Source of the DNA: Actinocatenispora comari
Lineage (GTDB): Bacteria; Actinomycetota; Actinomycetes; Mycobacteriales; Micromonosporaceae
Length of the DNA stretch: 64,000 nucleotides
Assembly: GCF_017312725.1 (NCBI RefSeq)
Contig: NZ_BOPO01000053.1
Location: forward strand, 62,001 to 126,000
Reading direction: 5' to 3'
Shown here: positions 45,423 to 53,015 of the stretch, piece by piece
How the letters are laid out: every line of letters starts with the position of its first letter
Numbering within the stretch: the first letter of the stretch is position 1
Made by a program: the position numbers and the translations under genes
The notes under the pieces: generated by a model
Database searches by the model: none
Seen by the model: the letters and a program-made list of their open reading frames with translations, nothing else
Told to the model about the DNA's origin: nothing

Positions 45423-45431
45423 GGCGGCGAC

Positions 45432-46904
45432 ATGGACCAGTCCGAGGCGCCGGTGCTGGAGGCGCTGCGCGACTTCCGGCGGCAGCGGTTCACCCCGTTC
45501 ACCCCGCCCGGCCACAAGCAGGGCCGCGGCGCCGCCCGGAGCACCGTGGACGCGTTGGGGGCCGACGTGTTCGGCTCCGACATCCTCGCGATCTCCGGGC
45601 TGGACGACCGCACCTCCTCGCACGAGGTACTGGCCCGGGCGCAGCAGCTGATGGCCGAGGCGGTCGATGCCGAGCACGCGTTCTTCAGCACCTGCGGGAG
45701 TTCGCTGTCGGTCAAGAGCGCGATGTTGTCGGTGGCCGGACCGCACGAGGAGCTCATCGTCGGGCGCGACGCGCACAAGTCGGTGGTTTCCGGGCTCATC
45801 CTGTCCGGCATCCGGCCGATCTGGGTGGAACCGCAGTGGGACGCGCAGCGCCACCTTGCGCACCCGCCCGCGCCCGAGTCCGTTGCGGCCGCCTTCGCGG
45901 AGCATCCCGACGTCCGTGGCGCGCTGATCACCTCACCCACGCCGTACGGGACCTGCGCCGATCTCGCCGCGCACGCCGACGCCTGCCACCGGTACGGACG
46001 TCCGCTGATCGTCGACGAGGCGTGGGGCGCGCACCTGCCGTTCCACGATCGGCTGCCGACCTGGGCGATGGATGCCGGCGCCGACGTCTGCGTCACCAGC
46101 GTGCACAAGATGGGTGCCGGGCTCGAACAGGGTTCGGTGTTTCATCTGCGCGGCGACCTGATCGATCCGGCGGTGCTGTCCAGCCGGGCCGACCTGCTCG
46201 GTACGACCAGCCCGTCGGTGCTGATCTACGCCGGCCTGGACGGGTGGCGCCGCCAGATGGTGCAGGACGGTACCCGCCTGCTGGGCGACGCGCTCGATCT
46301 TGCCCGCGACGTGCGGGCCCGGCTGTCCGACCTGGACGGTGTGCACCTTGCCGGTGCGGAGTTCGTCGGGCCGGGCCGAGCCGCCGATCTCGACCCGCTG
46401 CAGATCGTGCTGGACATCAGCACGCTGGGCGTGCTCGGCTACCGCGCGGCCGACTGGATCTACGCCAACCACCGCGTCTCCATGCATCTCGCCGATCACC
46501 GGCGGATCAGTGCACAGCTGACGTTCGCCGACGACGAGTCGACCGCCGAGCGGCTGCTGACCGCGGTACGCGACGTCGTCGAGCACGCCGACCAGCTGCG
46601 CGGCGGGCAACGGGTCGAGGTACCGGATCCGGGCGGGCTGCGGTTGGCCCAGGCGATGCTGCCGCGCGATGCGTTCTTCGCCCGTACCGAGCAGATCTCG
46701 GCGAAGCAGGCGGTCGGGCGGGTGTCGGCAGAAATGATCACGCCCTACCCACCCGGCATTCCGGCGATCCTGCCCGGGGAACGCATCACCGAGCCGGTCG
46801 TGCGCTATCTGCGTACCGGAGTCGACGCCGGCATGGTGTGCCCGGACGCGGTCGACTCGACGGTCGAGAGCGTCCGCGTCGTCGCCACCGACGAGGAGGC
46901 CTGA
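45432..46904 (+). CDS. Orn/Lys/Arg decarboxylase-family PLP enzyme
   Basis: A 490-residue fold-type I PLP enzyme decarboxylating a basic amino acid, most likely lysine, ornithine or arginine. FTPPGHKQGRGAA (about 22-34) is the family opening, FFSTCGSSLSVKSAML (about 85-100) surrounds the cofactor and SVHKMGAGLEQGS (about 225-237) contains the Schiff-base Lys. It lacks the N-terminal response-regulator-like wing of the E. coli inducible enzymes, like Bacillus SpeA/YaaO. Polyamine production or pH homeostasis under stress would fit the neighbours. AGGGGAAGGG precedes the ATG. Confidence 0.9.
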   Translation: MDQSEAPVLEALRDFRRQRFTPFTPPGHKQGRGAARSTVDALGADVFGSDILAISGLDDRTSSHEVLARAQQLMAEAVDAEHAFFSTCGSSLSVKSAMLSVAGPHEELIVGRDAHKSVVSGLILSGIRPIWVEPQWDAQRHLAHPPAPESVAAAFAEHPDVRGALITSPTPYGTCADLAAHADACHRYGRPLIVDEAWGAHLPFHDRLPTWAMDAGADVCVTSVHKMGAGLEQGSVFHLRGDLIDPAVLSSRADLLGTTSPSVLIYAGLDGWRRQMVQDGTRLLGDALDLARDVRARLSDLDGVHLAGAEFVGPGRAADLDPLQIVLDISTLGVLGYRAADWIYANHRVSMHLADHRRISAQLTFADDESTAERLLTAVRDVVEHADQLRGGQRVEVPDPGGLRLAQAMLPRDAFFARTEQISAKQAVGRVSAEMITPYPPGIPAILPGERITEPVVRYLRTGVDAGMVCPDAVDSTVESVRVVATDEEA

Positions 46905-47034: not shown

Positions 47035-47346
47035 ATGACCGAGAAAACGGCGAAGCGCGAGACGACGCGATCGTCCGAGAGGCGTGGTCCGGCGCTGGCC
47101 GCGTCACGCGAGGCCATGGCGCAACTGGCCGAGTTGACCGGCCGCACGCCGGACTCGGTGTCCGCACTGGAACCGACCGACGACGGCTGGAGCTTCCAGG
47201 TGGAGATCGTCGAGCTGGAACGCATCCCGCAGACCACGAGCGTGCTCGCCAGCTACCAGGTCGACGCCGATCCCGACGGCAACGTCCTGTCGTACCGCCG
47301 CCTGCACCGCTACACCCGCAACGGAACGGAAGGATCGCGCCAGTGA
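47035..47346 (+). CDS. gvpO: Gas vesicle protein GvpO
   Basis: A 103-residue protein matching GvpO: a charged N-terminus, then ASREAMAQLAELTGRTPDSV (about 24-43), WSFQVEIVELERIPQTTSVL (about 52-71) and YQVDADPDGNVLSYRRLHRY (about 74-93). GvpO is required for or regulates gas vesicle formation and in actinomycetes is the first gene of the operon, as here. Its stop overlaps the GTG of gvpJ. A SigB-like promoter lies 60 nt upstream. Confidence 0.92.
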   Translation: MTEKTAKRETTRSSERRGPALAASREAMAQLAELTGRTPDSVSALEPTDDGWSFQVEIVELERIPQTTSVLASYQVDADPDGNVLSYRRLHRYTRNGTEGSRQ

Positions 47347-47690
47347 CCGTGCAGCAACCGCGCGGGACCACGCTGTCCCCGTCGTCCCGCAGCGGAGACA
47401 CCCTCGCCGACATCCTGGAACGGGTGCTGGACAAGGGCATCGTGATCGCCGGCGACATCCAGGTGAACGTTCTGGACATCGAGCTGTTGACGTTGAAGCT
47501 GCGGCTGCTCGTCGCCTCCGTCGACACCGCCCGCGACATGGGCATCGACTGGTGGAGCCGGGACCCGTTCCTGACCGGGGAAACCGCGCTGCAGCGCGAG
47601 AACCAGGAACTCGCCGACCGGCTGGAGCGGCTGGAACGCGCCACCGGCCGCACGGCCGACTCGGTGCAGGACCCGGACGGGGACCGATGA
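47343..47690 (+). CDS. gvpJ: Gas vesicle protein GvpJ
   Basis: A 115-residue member of the GvpA/J/M family. The core DTLADILERVLDKGIVIAGD then LDIELLTLKLRLLVASVDTA (about 19-64) has the amphipathic helix-strand-strand-helix plan of the vesicle wall protein. A coiled-coil-like tail (LQRENQELADRLERLERATG) distinguishes it from GvpA. Minor structural or nucleating component. GTG start overlaps gvpO; stop overlaps the gvpL ATG. Confidence 0.88.
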   Translation: MTVQQPRGTTLSPSSRSGDTLADILERVLDKGIVIAGDIQVNVLDIELLTLKLRLLVASVDTARDMGIDWWSRDPFLTGETALQRENQELADRLERLERATGRTADSVQDPDGDR

Positions 47691-48694
47691 GACAGGTCGA
47701 CAGCGACGACGTCGCGGAACTGGTGCGGTCCGCCCGCGCCGAGGCCCGCGCGCTCGTGCACGCCGAACTCGTCGAGCAGTTCGCGTCGAGCTACCGCGCG
47801 GCGCTGCGCGACGCGGCCGAGCCGCACGGCGCCCCGCCGGCGGAGGCGGACCCGGCGCGCCCGGCTCCGCCGCGGTCGACCGCGTCGGCCGGCACGACCG
47901 GGGACGAGTCGAAGGCCGTACGGCCGAGCGAACCGCCGGAGGCCGGCGACGGGTGGTACGTCTACGCGCTGGCCCGCGCGGACGCGATCGACGGGTTGAC
48001 CGGCCGACGCGGTATCGACGGTGTCGACACGACGGTGGTCGAGGGCCCCGGCGTCGCCGCGATGTCCGCGGTACTGCCGATCGCGCCGTTTCGGGCCGCG
48101 GAACGGGAACCGGACCTGGCCGAGGACGGCTGGCTCGCGCACGCGCTGCGGGCCCACGACCGCGTCGTGGCCGAGGCGTTCGCGGCGGTACCGCTGCTGC
48201 CGCTGCGGTTCGGCACGCTCTATCCGGACCGGGACGCGGTCGTGTCGATGCTGCGGACCGGTGCCGACGAGCTGCGCGCGGAACTGGACCGGCTGGCCGG
48301 CAGCGCCGAATGGTCGGTCAAGGCGTTCAGCGAGACGCCGGCCGAGCCGGCCGACCAGCTGCCGCCCGACCCCGGGCCGTCCGACGGCACCGGCTGGATG
48401 ACGCACCAGCTGCGCACCGCGACCGCCCGGGAACACCGGCAGCGCCAGCGGACCGCGGCCGCCGCGGCGATCGGCGACCGGCTCGCCGGGTACGCCCGCG
48501 AGACCTGGCAGCGGCGGGCCGCGGACAACGATCCGACCCGGCCGGTGCTCGACACCGTGTACCTGGTCGACGACGACGCCCGGGTGGACTTCCTGGGCGA
48601 ACTGGAACAACTGCGGCGGCGGGAGCTGCGGCTGACCGTCAGCGGCCCGAACCCCGCGTACCACTTCGTCCGGCTGGGTGTCGACGATGGCTGA
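47687..48694 (+). CDS. gvpL: Gas vesicle protein GvpL/GvpF with N-terminal extension
   Basis: A 335-residue GvpL/GvpF family protein. The family domain begins at DGWYVYALARADAIDG (about 88) and includes AEAFAAVPLLPLRFGTLYPD (about 164-183). The preceding 85 residues are extra: a helical stretch (ELVRSARAEARALVHAELVE) followed by a Pro and Ala rich linker. GvpF/L proteins cap or chaperone the growing GvpA rib. ATG overlaps gvpJ (ATGA). I call it gvpL because it follows gvpJ, as in Streptomyces. Confidence 0.85.
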   Translation: MRQVDSDDVAELVRSARAEARALVHAELVEQFASSYRAALRDAAEPHGAPPAEADPARPAPPRSTASAGTTGDESKAVRPSEPPEAGDGWYVYALARADAIDGLTGRRGIDGVDTTVVEGPGVAAMSAVLPIAPFRAAEREPDLAEDGWLAHALRAHDRVVAEAFAAVPLLPLRFGTLYPDRDAVVSMLRTGADELRAELDRLAGSAEWSVKAFSETPAEPADQLPPDPGPSDGTGWMTHQLRTATAREHRQRQRTAAAAAIGDRLAGYARETWQRRAADNDPTRPVLDTVYLVDDDARVDFLGELEQLRRRELRLTVSGPNPAYHFVRLGVDDG

Positions 48695-49346
48695 ACAGCG
48701 GCTGATGCTCGACGACGGCTCGCTGGTCGATCTGCTCGACCGGCTGGTCGACACCGGCGTGGTGGTCGACGGCAACGTGATCATCTCGCTGTCCGGCGTC
48801 GACCTGATCCGGCTCGATCTGCGCGCGCTGGTCGCCGCGCTCGCCACCCTCACCGACGAACCGGTGCCGACTGCGGCCGGCGCCCCCCGTACCGCCACCC
48901 CGGGGCGCCAGGCGCAGCGCGACGCCACGTCGCACGACGGGGCGGAATCCGCGGCCACCCACCGTTTCCGGGACCGAAGTCACCGGGAACCCGACGTGCC
49001 GAACCACCGGCCGGACGGCGTCGCGACACGGCCGGCCACACCGGCGTTGGGCGCGCGTACCGCCGGCGGCCGGGCCGGCAGCGACCCCGCCGACGTCGTC
49101 GGTCGGCTCGGCCGCCAACTCGGGCAGGCACAGAACCAGAGCGGCCTGGCCGGACTGGTGGTCGTGGTCGTCGACCTCGTCCGCCAACTGTTGCAACGCC
49201 AGGCGTTGCGCCGAATGGACGCGGGCAGCCTCACCGACGACGAGGTCGAACGGTTGGGCCGCGCCCTGATGTCACTGCAGCAGCAGGTCGCCGATCTGGT
49301 CGAGGCGCTGGACCTGCACCCGCATGCCGGTGACGACCGTCGCTGA
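48687..49346 (+). CDS. Fused gas vesicle protein GvpS-GvpK
   Basis: A 219-residue protein joining two normally separate proteins. Residues 8-57 (DDGSLVDLLDRLVDTGVVVD then SLSGVDLIRLDLRALVAALA) are a GvpA/J/S wall-type module. Residues 58-130 are a polar, disordered linker. Residues 135-212 (SGLAGLVVVVVDLVRQLLQR, QALRRMDAGSLTDDEVERLG, RALMSLQQQVADLVEALDL) are GvpK. The frame is continuous with no frameshift signal. The start used overlaps the gvpL stop by 8 nt; a GTG three codons upstream is an alternative. Confidence 0.85.
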   Translation: MAEQRLMLDDGSLVDLLDRLVDTGVVVDGNVIISLSGVDLIRLDLRALVAALATLTDEPVPTAAGAPRTATPGRQAQRDATSHDGAESAATHRFRDRSHREPDVPNHRPDGVATRPATPALGARTAGGRAGSDPADVVGRLGRQLGQAQNQSGLAGLVVVVVDLVRQLLQRQALRRMDAGSLTDDEVERLGRALMSLQQQVADLVEALDLHPHAGDDRR

Positions 49347-49395: not shown

Positions 49396-49836
49396 ATGAC
49401 CGTCAGTTCGCAGACCCAGAGCATCGATCGGGCACCGCATCCGTCCGGGCTGTACGACGTGCTCGAACTGATCCTCGACAAGGGACTGGTGATCGACGTG
49501 TACGTGCGCGTGTCGCTGGTCGGGATCGAACTGCTGACCATCGACGCCCGCATCGTGATCGCCAGCGTCGACACGTACCTGCGGTTCGCCGAGCGGGTCA
49601 ACCGGCTGGATCTGACCCAGAACAAGGACAGCTCGACCCTGCCCGAGCTGGTCGACGACATGACCGAGAGCGGCGCGCACGGCAAGACCAAGGGCGCGTT
49701 GAGCGGCGCGGCGGAGACCGTGTCGGATGCGTTCAAGCGCGGTCGGGGTGAGGACGACGACGACTCGTCGTCCCGCCGGTCCCGCACCACCCGCAGCCGC
49801 AGCCGCAGCCGCAGCAAGGACGAGGACGAGTCATGA
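49396..49836 (+). CDS. gvpA: Major gas vesicle structural protein GvpA
   Basis: A 146-residue wall protein. The core GLYDVLELILDKGLVIDVYV then LVGIELLTIDARIVIASVDT (about 18-66) is the GvpA rib-forming unit that polymerises into the hydrophobic gas-permeable shell. The second half is an actinobacterial tail ending in acidic residues and Ser-Arg dipeptides. AAGGAGAGGAG lies 6 nt before the ATG. There is a 49-nt gap from the previous gene and the best ribosome site of the operon, fitting high expression. Confidence 0.93.
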   Translation: MTVSSQTQSIDRAPHPSGLYDVLELILDKGLVIDVYVRVSLVGIELLTIDARIVIASVDTYLRFAERVNRLDLTQNKDSSTLPELVDDMTESGAHGKTKGALSGAAETVSDAFKRGRGEDDDDSSSRRSRTTRSRSRSRSKDEDES

Positions 49837-49897: not shown

Positions 49898-50719
49898 ATG
49901 AGGGAGCCGGGGGAGGCGGTGGGCGACGTGCCGCCGACCGGCGAGCCGGCGGCACCGCCGAACGGGGCGCAGCCGGAGGCGGACGAGCCCGACGGAACGT
50001 ACGTGTACGGCATCGTCGCCGCCGACCACCCGTGCCGACTGGACGAGATGGTCGGGGTCGGGGCGGAACCGGGGCCGGTACGCCGGGTGGCGGTCGAGCA
50101 GATCGCCGCCGTGGTCGGTGTGGCGCCGGCGAAGCTGCGCGCCAAGCGCCGTGACCTGGCGGCGCACCACCGACTGCTGACCGCGCTGGCCGAACAGGGC
50201 ACCGTACTGCCGATGCGCTTCGGCGTGGTGGCGCCCGACGACGAGGCGCTCCGCCGCCAGCTGCGCCGGGACGCGGACCGCTACCTGGCCGCGCTGCACG
50301 AGGTGGCGGGTACCGCGGAGTACAACGTGAAGCTGCTGGCCGACGAGGACGCGGTGGTGCGGCGGGCGGCCGAGACGGACCCGGCCGTGCTGCGCGAACG
50401 CGAGGCGGCCGACGCCGGGTACGAGGGACGGATCCGGCTCGGCCAGGCGGTCGCGTCCGCGGTCGAGGAGGCGTTGAGCGCCGACGCGGAACGCATCGTG
50501 GCGACCCTGGCGCCGCTCGCCCGGCGGACCGCGCCGGCCCCGGCGACCGCCGACACCGCGATCAACACGAGCTTCCTGGTGGCGGACGAGCAGTCCGAAC
50601 GGTTCCGCGGCGCGGTCGACGAACTCGCCCGTGCCCTGCGCGGCGACGGCGAGGTGCGCTGCACCGGGCCGCTGCCGCCGTACAGCTTCGTGCCCGGCGA
50701 CGACGGCGGTGACCGGTGA
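49898..50719 (+). CDS. gvpF: Gas vesicle protein GvpF
   Basis: A 273-residue GvpL/GvpF family protein. The domain begins DGTYVYGIVAADHPCRLDEM (about 32-51) and includes LLTALAEQGTVLPMRFGVVA (about 91-110) and YNVKLLADEDAVVRR (about 144). The first 30 residues are Pro and Glu rich. GvpF interacts with GvpA during assembly. ATG at 49898 after GGAGGAGGAAC. Position directly after gvpA is as in Streptomyces. Confidence 0.9.
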   Translation: MREPGEAVGDVPPTGEPAAPPNGAQPEADEPDGTYVYGIVAADHPCRLDEMVGVGAEPGPVRRVAVEQIAAVVGVAPAKLRAKRRDLAAHHRLLTALAEQGTVLPMRFGVVAPDDEALRRQLRRDADRYLAALHEVAGTAEYNVKLLADEDAVVRRAAETDPAVLREREAADAGYEGRIRLGQAVASAVEEALSADAERIVATLAPLARRTAPAPATADTAINTSFLVADEQSERFRGAVDELARALRGDGEVRCTGPLPPYSFVPGDDGGDR

Positions 50720-50973
50720 TGGGTCTGCTGACCGGGCTGCTCACGCTGCCGCTGGCGCCGGTACGCGGTGTCGCGTGGGTCGCCGACCAGATCGACCAGG
50801 CGGCCCGGCGCGAGTACTACGACCCGGCCGCGATCCGCGCCGAGCTGGCGCGGCTGGCCGACGCGGTGGATCGCGGTGAGATCAGCGAGGCCGAGTTCGA
50901 CGCCGCCGAGGACGAGCTTCTCGACCGGCTGGAGGCCGGCGGCACAGATGACTCCGTAAGGAGGAGCCGATGA
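50719..50973 (+). CDS. gvpG: Gas vesicle protein GvpG
   Basis: An 84-residue small helical protein. MGLLTGLLTLPLAPVRGVAW followed by VADQIDQAARREYYDPAAIR and EISEAEFDAAEDELLDRLEA is the GvpG pattern. It is an assembly factor that works with GvpF and GvpL. ATG overlaps the gvpF stop; a GTG one codon earlier is possible. The stop overlaps the gvpY ATG. Confidence 0.92.
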   Translation: MGLLTGLLTLPLAPVRGVAWVADQIDQAARREYYDPAAIRAELARLADAVDRGEISEAEFDAAEDELLDRLEAGGTDDSVRRSR

Positions 50974-51914
50974 ACAACTCGACCAAGGTGGCCGTCGCGG
51001 TCGCTGGCGGATACCTGTTGGGGCGACGGAAGAAGACGAAGCTCGCCATCATGCTCGGTGCGTGGCTGCTGGGTCGCAAGTTCGACTTCGACCCGAAGCG
51101 GCTCGCCCGCGAGGCGCTGTCGATGCTCTCGGCGAGCCCCGGTGTGGAGCAGTTGACCGGCGACGTCCGGGAGAAGCTGGTCAGCGCCGGCAAGGGCGCC
51201 GCGCTGTCGATGGCGGAGAACCGGATGAACCAGCTCGCCGACCGGCTGCACGACCGTACCCAGATCCTGTCCGGCGGCGACGAGGAGGAGGAACCGGAAC
51301 CGGAGGACGAGGAAGGCGAGCCGTCCGGTGCCGCCGAGCAGGACGAGCCGGACGACGAGCCTCGGGGCCGCCGCGGCCGTTCCCGCGCCGACGAGGCCGA
51401 CGAGGCCGACGAGGGCGCAGACGAGGCCGACGAGAGCGACGAGGCCGACGAGAGCGACGAGGCCGACGAGGGCGACGAGGACCGGGGCCGTCGGGGCACC
51501 CGCGCCGGCAGCAAGCGAGCCGGCTCGTCGGGCGGGACCCGCCGCCGCGCGAGCAGGAAGGACGAGCCCGTCGACGAGGACACCGAGCCGAACGAGGAGC
51601 CGGGCCCGGACGATCGGGACGGCGCCGACGAGGAGGAGAAGCCGCAGCGGGCACGGCGTCGGAGCAGCACATCGTCGCGCAGCACATCGACGCGCGGCAC
51701 GTCGTCGCGCAGCTCGTCGTCCCGCGGCACCAAGTCGGGCGCCACGTCGTCGCGCACCAAGTCGGGCGCCACGTCGTCGCGCACCAAGTCGGGTGGTTCG
51801 TCGACATCCGGTACCAAGGCCAAGCGCTCGTCCGGTGGCACCCGATCGAGCAGCAGCCGCAGCTCGACCCGTACCGGGCGGTCGCGGTCCGGCCGTGGAT
51901 CCGCGGACGACTGA
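50970..51914 (+). CDS. gvpY: Gas vesicle cluster protein GvpY-like, long low-complexity tail
   Basis: A 314-residue protein. The N-terminal 100 residues are ordered (VAVAVAGGYLLGRRKKTKLA, AREALSMLSASPGVEQLTGD, REKLVSAGKGAALSMAENRM), as I recall for Streptomyces GvpY. The rest is low complexity: a Glu/Asp block with DEAD/DESD repeats, then a Ser, Thr, Arg, Lys block with two near-identical SGATSSRTK repeats. The tail is thus acidic then basic. TAAGGAGGAGCCG precedes the ATG. Function unknown. Confidence 0.8.
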   Translation: MNNSTKVAVAVAGGYLLGRRKKTKLAIMLGAWLLGRKFDFDPKRLAREALSMLSASPGVEQLTGDVREKLVSAGKGAALSMAENRMNQLADRLHDRTQILSGGDEEEEPEPEDEEGEPSGAAEQDEPDDEPRGRRGRSRADEADEADEGADEADESDEADESDEADEGDEDRGRRGTRAGSKRAGSSGGTRRRASRKDEPVDEDTEPNEEPGPDDRDGADEEEKPQRARRRSSTSSRSTSTRGTSSRSSSSRGTKSGATSSRTKSGATSSRTKSGGSSTSGTKAKRSSGGTRSSSSRSSTRTGRSRSGRGSADD

Positions 51915-51956: not shown

Positions 51957-53015
51957 GTGAGCGAATCGACCGGTCTGCAGGACATGATCGAGCGGGTCCG
52001 GGACGTCGCGGCGCGCAACCCGGCCGCCGAACGACTGCTCGGCGAGTTGGAGGACTACCTTTCCGCGCAAGGAAAACACGCGCTGGGCAAGGTGGCGGAG
52101 AAGGTCGGTGAGTCGACCCGCAAGCTGACCGACGTGGCCGACGGCAAGGGTGCGCCGGGCGGGCTGCTCGGCGGCACGATCAAGGAGATCGCCGGCGGCT
52201 CGAACCCGGTCACCGGTGCACTGAAGGCCGGCGTCAAGGGCGTCGGCAGCAAGGTCAAGGACGCCCTCGGCGGGGGCGGCGGCAAGGGCGGTGGCGGCGG
52301 GAAGAAGTCGATGAAGATCATCGAGGACCTCGACGTCGGCGTCCCGCTGGAGACCGCGTACAACCAGTGGACCCAGCTGCAGGACGTGCCGAAGTGGTCC
52401 AAGGGCGCGCAGGCGGTCAACCAGGAAGACGAGGTCACCAGTACCTGGAAGGCGAAGGTGTTCTGGTCGACCCGCAACTGGACCGCGAAGATCAGCGAGC
52501 AGATCCCGGACGAACGCATCGCGTGGACCTCGGAAGGCCCGAAGGGCGTGGTCAACGGCGTCGTCACGTTCCACGAGCTGGACGAGCGGCTGACCCGGAT
52601 CCTGGTCGTACTGGAGTACATCCCGGGCGGGTTCTTCGAGAAGACCGGGAACCTGTGGCGCTCGCAGGGGCGCCGGGCCCGGCTCGACCTCAAGCTGTTC
52701 CGGCACTTCCTGATGACCGACCCGGACGCCGGCCAGGAGGGCTGGCGGGGCGAGATCCGGGACGGCGAGGTCGTCGACGACGGCGAGGGCGACGAACGCG
52801 ACGACGAGGACCGCGACGACGAGGGCCGCGACGACGAGGACCGCGACGACGAGGACCTTGAGAACGAGGACGAGGACGAGGCCGACGACGAGCGGGACGA
52901 GGACGAGGAGGAAGAGGAGCGGCCGCGGCGCCGCCACCCTCGCGACGAGGAGGACGAGGACGACGAGGAAGAGGACGAGTACGACGAGGACGAGGACGAG
53001 GACGAGGACAGGTGA
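51957..53015 (+). CDS. gvpZ: Gas vesicle cluster protein GvpZ-like, SRPBCC domain with polyacidic tail
   Basis: A 352-residue protein. After a helical N-terminus and a Gly-Lys linker (GGGGGKGGGGGKK), residues 117-260 form a START/SRPBCC cyclase-like domain (IIEDLDVGVPLETAYNQWTQ, DERIAWTSEGPKGVVNGVVT). The last 90 residues are almost only Asp, Glu and Arg. SRPBCC proteins bind lipids or other hydrophobic ligands. GTG at 51957 after GAGGAGAGAG. It is the last gene before the operon terminator. Confidence 0.85.
   Translation: MSESTGLQDMIERVRDVAARNPAAERLLGELEDYLSAQGKHALGKVAEKVGESTRKLTDVADGKGAPGGLLGGTIKEIAGGSNPVTGALKAGVKGVGSKVKDALGGGGGKGGGGGKKSMKIIEDLDVGVPLETAYNQWTQLQDVPKWSKGAQAVNQEDEVTSTWKAKVFWSTRNWTAKISEQIPDERIAWTSEGPKGVVNGVVTFHELDERLTRILVVLEYIPGGFFEKTGNLWRSQGRRARLDLKLFRHFLMTDPDAGQEGWRGEIRDGEVVDDGEGDERDDEDRDDEGRDDEDRDDEDLENEDEDEADDERDEDEEEEERPRRRHPRDEEDEDDEEEDEYDEDEDEDEDR

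Follow-up and report, generated by a model that had tools for sequence, protein, structure and literature searches.

A gas-vesicle operon of Actinocatenispora comari with gvpS and gvpK fused in one reading frame

The gas-vesicle (gvp) operon of Actinocatenispora comari was analysed in a window of 64,000 nucleotides (NZ_BOPO01000053.1, positions 62,001 to 126,000 of the forward strand). One of its genes, designated gvpSK, encodes a GvpS-type wall module followed by GvpK, and the predicted product is confirmed, from domain matches in a single frame and from recurrence in other genomes, as a genuine one-chain S+K fusion. The reading put forward, at a probability of roughly 0.55, is that gvpSK is an inherited fusion with a flexible polar linker, which would act as a tethered vesicle seed carrying S and K at 1:1. 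The start of the vesicle nucleus is treated as an open question in the portions of two sources drawn on here (PMC10903477, PMC11445434).

The gvpSK gene and its product

The gene is a single unbroken frame of 219 codons plus stop, and its product has 219 aa and 23.2 kDa (Table 1), as a first-pass annotation of the window had stated. That annotation proposed a domain search of the 219-residue protein, in which both families were above their cut-offs (25 bits each). Gas_vesicle (PF00741) was matched over its whole profile (positions 1–39 of 39), which disposes of the objection that the first half might have no such match, and GvpK (PF05121) was matched over positions 6–71 of 85. No third family was found up to E = 1 in a Pfam-A search. 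The linker described as polar is so, with a GRAVY of -0.83 over the 96 aa between the Pfam matches.

The wall module had been described as GvpA/J/S-type and was assigned further with paralogue profiles for J, S and A, each trained on 16 split operons with fused rows excluded. It scored 62.8 bits with the S profile, 25.7 with that of J and 23.4 with that of A, which bears out the name GvpS. The same profiles assigned the window's own J and A, and those of Nostoc sphaeroides (described below), to J and A, and the wall modules of the remaining four fused proteins likewise scored best as S.

An AlphaFold2 model of the protein was built on 68 rows and had moderate confidence (mean pLDDT 66.3, pTM 0.44). 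The S module was modelled as a helix (10–22), two strands (30–35 and 38–44) and a second helix (45–56), which is a GvpA-like layout; residues 57–133 had no regular structure; and the K side was modelled as helices 134–146 (low confidence), 150–179 and 184–207. The module limits of the first-pass annotation, residues 8–57 and 135–212, agree with this model. By ten-residue blocks, pLDDT was 79–95 across residues 151–210 of K, 67–73 in S and 52–55 in helix 134–146. Residues 9–56 matched the GvpA structures 8gbs and 7r1c by sequence search, and a Foldseek search with the model returned no PDB match at E <= 0.001. The model offers no ground for S-K contact.

Table 1. Genes of the gvp operon and segments of gvpSK, in positions of the window
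Feature	Coordinates	Strand	Evidence
gvpO	47035..47346	+	Pfam GvpO, 107.9 bits
gvpJ-type gene, separate Gas_vesicle protein	47343..47690	+	Pfam Gas_vesicle, 58.7 bits; J by paralogue profile
gvpF/L family gene ('L' by position, immediately upstream of gvpSK)	47687..48694	+	Pfam GvpL_GvpF, 147 bits
gvpSK, fused GvpS-GvpK	48687..49346	+	start overlaps 3' end of upstream gvpF/L gene by 8 bases
GvpS-type wall module	48720..48836	+	Pfam Gas_vesicle, residues 12-50, 48.0 bits; S-type by paralogue profiles
polar stretch between Pfam matches	48837..49124	+	96 aa, rich in A, R, G, P, T, D
GvpK module	49125..49322	+	Pfam GvpK, residues 147-212, 73.9 bits
gvpA	49396..49836	+	NCBIfam PRK09368 GvpA, 199.2 bits (cut-off 151); Shine-Dalgarno-like AGGAGAGGAG in front
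second gvpF/L family gene ('F')	49898..50719	+	Pfam GvpL_GvpF, 205.3 bits
gvpG	50716..50973	+	Pfam GvpG, 107 bits
gvpY-like ORF	50970..51914	+	relatives in same place in other operons
gvpZ-like ORF	51957..53015	+	Polyketide_cyc PF03364, 54.5 bits; acidic tail; relatives in place

Operon context

The genes lie in the order O-J-L-SK-A-F-G-Y-Z, with overlaps between O and J, J and L, L and SK, F and G, and G and Y, and with short gaps between SK and A, A and F, and Y and Z. The best NCBIfam match of the gvpJ-type gene was halo_gas_GvpJ, under its cut-off. The two ORFs downstream of gvpG are those we take to be gvpY-like and gvpZ-like. The first had no Pfam or NCBIfam match, and its tail is long and of low complexity, with TKSGATSSR-type repeats; the second has a very acidic D/E tail, and its relatives are equally placed in several operons of the same type. 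Immediately upstream of the operon (45426–46904) is a gene of the Orn/Lys/Arg decarboxylase family (169 bits), shorter than the enterobacterial enzyme models.

Twenty-eight operons were annotated. The order O-J-L-S-K-A was found in 18 (5 fused and 13 split, L046 and L118, taken as one record, being counted twice among the split), and locus L051 has this order with no O match. Three (L114, L115 and L119) were Streptomyces-like, A-F-G-O-J-L-S-K, and the rest were incomplete or otherwise arranged. Split S and K are the commoner state even within the O-J-L-S-K-A type (13/18), and fusion is therefore dispensable. Within the window's genus, a further species (G001, locus L119) carries the Streptomyces-like operon with S and K split; the presence of two gvp operon types in one genus suggests whole-cluster replacement or transfer.

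Recurrence of the fusion

Searches of related genomes, as the first-pass annotation had proposed, and of a contig collection found the same one-frame fusion in four further genomes: a second species of the window's genus in an assembly of one contig (G002, 244 aa), another genus of the same family (G1097, 173 aa), another family of the same order (G060, 199 aa) and a Chloroflexi-labelled metagenome-assembled genome (CF83, locus L047, 192 aa). The fused clade thus comprises this MAG and, within a single order, three genera from two families. Both Pfam domains were over cut-off in all five proteins, with 96 aa between the matches in the window, 121 in G002, 56 in G1097, 74 in G060 and 59 in CF83. 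The C-terminal end of the GvpK profile, unmatched in the window protein, is a stretch for which the family cut-off demands no match; of its 85 positions, the last one matched was 71 in the window and G002, 67 in G1097, 76 in CF83 and 82 in G060. GC content was 0.66 at the Chloroflexi-labelled locus, 0.73 in the window and 0.66 in the G060 contig.

A sequencing or assembly error hiding a stop or start between the halves, the other objection raised beforehand, is ruled out by this recurrence in independent assemblies, G002 and three more genomes, with differing linkers. The open frame was itself considered as proof of fusion and discarded. The window linker (91 codons) was free of in-frame stops in 1329 of 2000 dinucleotide shuffles and the G002 linker in 900 of 2000; an open linker frame is likely by chance in such GC-rich DNA, and its openness is therefore no evidence of fusion. 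Recurrence was used instead.

Frequency and copy number

The fusion is rare. The frequency samples overlap partly and contain the window genome unless stated, and a fusion was scored where one stop-free match covered both modules or from reading frames. Among 61 genomes of relatives, 10 had GvpK (11 matches) and 3 were fused. The genus sample (4 genomes) had a match in 3, fused in 2; the remaining species had no match to the fusion profile and no GvpK. In the family sample (250 genomes), 54 had a match at E <= 1e-20 and 3 were fused; in the order sample (298 genomes), at least 52 had a match at E <= 0.001, with 2 fused among the matches listed. Of 394 genomes in the class sample, 88 matched at E <= 1e-12, and of 396 in the phylum sample, 33 matched at E <= 0.001; each of these two samples had 1 fusion, the window itself. 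In the four large samples only 7 to 11 candidates were scored for each genome, and a weak fusion could therefore escape. The family of G060 is represented by 2 genomes (window excluded), and the one with a match is fused.

A search of a contig collection of 84,980 species returned 15 loci, of which 1 was fused (L047); the window's own and near genomes are perhaps absent from this collection, and both search patterns lay within the S module. Plasmids gave no match to the window protein. A cyanobacterial query matched four plasmid records, one of them from Streptomyces fungicidicus; of the other three, which were examined, those of Spartinivicinus and Nonomuraea had S and K separate. The same query gave no phage match and no relative among viral contigs.

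The window genome assembly (7.96 Mb, 151 contigs, 96.5% complete) contains a single GvpK, and its three Gas_vesicle genes are the J, SK and A of this operon. No second, free GvpK or GvpS was found in the whole assembly, so gvpSK must do both jobs, if the cluster works.

Linker, start codons and selection

Cleavage of the linker, or an internal start of GvpK, would yield separate S and K in the cell. In favour are the length and polarity of the linker, its largely unstructured state in the model, and in-frame GTG or TTG codons between the Pfam matches in three of the five fused genes: the window has candidates at GTG 60, GTG 104 and TTG 121, and G1097 and G060 have three in-frame GTG/TTG-type codons each. 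By eye, no Shine-Dalgarno sequence was evident before the window's three candidates. The other two genes, G002 and CF83, have no ATG, GTG or TTG between the matches; in these, only an unusual codon or a start inside a module could give a separate GvpK, which argues against this explanation. It is judged improbable.

Selection was estimated between the window and G002 over 217 aligned codons (Nei-Gojobori). dN/dS was 0.20 in S, 0.59 in the variable linker and 0.12 in K, and 0.32 overall. The 30 codons before K (residues 123–152; 49053–49142) gave 0.105 and are constrained like K itself. The protein is near-identical between the two species over these residues, which lie mostly outside the GvpK Pfam match and include the low-confidence helix 134–146; they are possibly a putative binding segment special to this genus.

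The same values bear on whether the cluster is a relic that no longer makes vesicles, the fusion being early decay. GvpN over its cut-off is absent from the window genome (best match 40.6 bits versus 266.8), which would fit decay, as would the one species of four in the genus without GvpK; sub-threshold GvpN matches alone were also the rule in 12 of 14 control genomes. Purifying selection on S and K speaks against decay, as do the gvp frames O, J, L, A, F and G, which are open and match their families, and a relic is considered very improbable.

Evolutionary origin

An operon tree was built from 21 concatenated operons (903 columns) and rooted on the three Streptomyces-like operons. Seven of the 28 operons were left out: L046 (a double), L048, L049, L050 and L120 (other or incomplete layouts), and L052 and L054 (short relatives of retained rows). 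The five fused operons formed one clade (81/83; bootstrap 81), as did the four actinobacterial ones (99/98). With S and K removed (792 columns), the corresponding values were 91/92 (bootstrap 91) and 98/98. S+K alone (111 columns) required two changes, and a single clade was not rejected (p-AU 0.163). A tree of 63 S+K pairs was drawn from 87 K matches after removal of 11 doubles, 6 without an upstream S and 7 with S at more than 400 bases; this tree, which predates G1097 and includes four fused rows, placed them in two places of one clade (bootstrap 99). CF83 and G1097 are long branches. Several independent S-K fusions, hinted at by these short S+K trees, found no support in the longer operon trees. 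From these sequence comparisons, a single origin of the S-K fusion is likely, if not proven.

The position of the two genes bears on a neutral origin, in which stop loss and a frame change would have joined neighbouring, often overlapping genes without benefit, the halves acting as if separate and translation coupling having already given similar amounts. Of the 87 K matches, 81 had an S-type match ending at most 900 bases upstream, and 74 had one ending at most 400 bases upstream (doubles included). In four class genomes (L096–L099) and also in Nonomuraea gerenzanensis (L123), S and K share a frame and are separated by one stop codon, an arrangement from which fusion can be a small step. The chance openness of the 91-codon linker and its fast evolution (dN/dS 0.59) also fit such an origin. 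Against it stand the persistence of the fusion along the clade described above, including the Chloroflexi-labelled MAG, and the fusion of the same pair in opposite order in Nostoc. Fusion without benefit is rated as rather unlikely, and the inherited, tethered seed is the reading carried forward. The in-frame pairs of L096–L099 and L123 belong to another gvp lineage.

Proposed role of the fusion

Where other operons of this type have gvpS and gvpK apart, the gvpSK fusion stands in their place in the window. In the proposed mechanism, the S module, with its GvpA layout, would enter the first, conical part of the vesicle shell, and the tethered GvpK helical hairpin would hold the proteins, GvpL in other organisms, by which GvpA is handed to the growing nucleus. 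S and K would thereby be fixed at 1:1, with K retained at the seed. A 1:1 stoichiometry in the cell, a position at the nucleus and any contact of the fusion with GvpL or GvpA are inferred.

For B. megaterium, the GvpA2-GvpL interaction is described as requiring each of GvpS, GvpK and GvpJ, for which a part in seeding is proposed; the same source counts GvpK among the essential proteins of the four systems it names (PMC11445434). In the same excerpted text, vesicles formed with all GvpS fusions tried, most GvpK fusions are said not to interfere, and the parts used name no direct S-K contact. The gvpK frame overlaps gvpS in this organism (PMC11445434), by 47 bp according to the relevant passage of PMC11223475. 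N-tagged GvpS and C-tagged GvpK attached to vesicles and were released by urea (PMC11223475, in part); the opposite ends were left untagged there because of the 47-bp overlap, and the ends that were tagged (GvpS N-end, GvpK C-end) are those that the S-K order leaves free. Results from haloarchaea weigh against S-K contact: the excerpt of PMC7688916 gives GvpL as the sole split-GFP partner of J, K and the S-like GvpM, and reports pull-downs that recovered M with K; GvpK is absent from the proteins identified in vesicle preparations, as stated in parts of PMC7688916 and PMC11445434.

The first-pass annotation held the fusion to be direct evidence that S and K act together. It is a comparative hint of joint action, for which 'direct evidence' is too strong, and the hint is the stronger because a cyanobacterium fuses both parts in reverse order. 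A more general claim is possible and is held tentatively: S and K may be an obligate 1:1 seeding unit that evolution hard-wired on two or more occasions, in the order S-K in actinobacteria (perhaps also Chloroflexi) and in the order K-S in cyanobacteria. If this were true, free GvpK, regarded by some as a soluble factor, would instead make up the latter half of the first rib subunit, and S/K fusions would be ready-made handles for the vesicle nucleus. Two apparently independent fusions in opposite order mark S and K as a likely working pair. Natural single-chain S/K proteins would offer a means to isolate the nucleus and to probe 1:1 stoichiometry, and a fused S/K might cut one gene from the gas-vesicle sets used as ultrasound reporters.

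Comparison with known systems

Split gvpS and gvpK of Streptomyces, Bacillus megaterium and others belong to the same families as the two halves of the window protein and are likewise adjacent with S before K; they are two proteins, whereas the window has one. The expectation that S and K are separate neighbours in Streptomyces holds for S. coelicolor (gvpOAFG-JLSK, in the part of PMC9501494 consulted), and separate neighbours were the commonest layout in the loci examined. The comparison with Streptomyces stands for the adjacent, split pair and not for the gene order, since the window operon is O-J-L-SK-A-F-G and does not follow the Streptomyces order. Closer to the window, in gene order around S-K and in the S/K clade, are the O-J-L-S-K-A-F operons of Pseudonocardiaceae and Frankia (Kutzneria, Lentzea, Thermocrispum, Frankia and Pseudofrankia); in those examined, S and K are split, unlike in the window.

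The combination of a GvpA-like module with GvpK in one chain is already known, and the idea is not wholly new. According to the relevant part of a 2024 review, the GvpK protein in Anabaena flos-aquae contains a GvpA-like domain and is perhaps a GvpJMS-GvpK fusion, of interest for nucleation (PMC10903477). Searches of the open-licence PMC literature, mostly at the level of listings and passages, found no report of an actinobacterial S-K fusion.

In Nostoc sphaeroides, the 35.8-kb plasmid p4 (L121, NZ_CP031945.1) carries a gas vesicle cluster of A, A, C, N, J, K-S, F/L and more. The K-S protein (WP_118171797.1, 157 aa) matched GvpK at residues 18–99 (116.5 bits) and Gas_vesicle at residues 115–153 (51.1 bits), and its wall module was nearest to S (39.1 bits, versus 23.9 for J and 13.2 for A). 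No separate S was found in the stretch examined, and separate gvpA and J are present.

The cyanobacterial GvpK proteins of Anabaena flos-aquae and Nostoc sphaeroides thus resemble the window protein in joining GvpK and a GvpA-like or Gas_vesicle domain in one chain, the module being of S-type in Nostoc. Nostoc has K then S with 15 aa between, whereas the window has S then K with 96 aa between; the Nostoc GvpK profile was matched to its end and that of the window to position 71 of 85. The window protein is the same kind of fusion as the Nostoc K-S protein and not the same fusion. Since the two orders are opposite, S and K were apparently fused twice, and two independent S/K fusions are apparently the simplest reading of these sequences, with one cyanobacterium examined. 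To the known fusion of a GvpA-like module with GvpK, this analysis adds the order S then K, the recurrence of that order along a single clade, and its pairing with a fusion in the reverse order.
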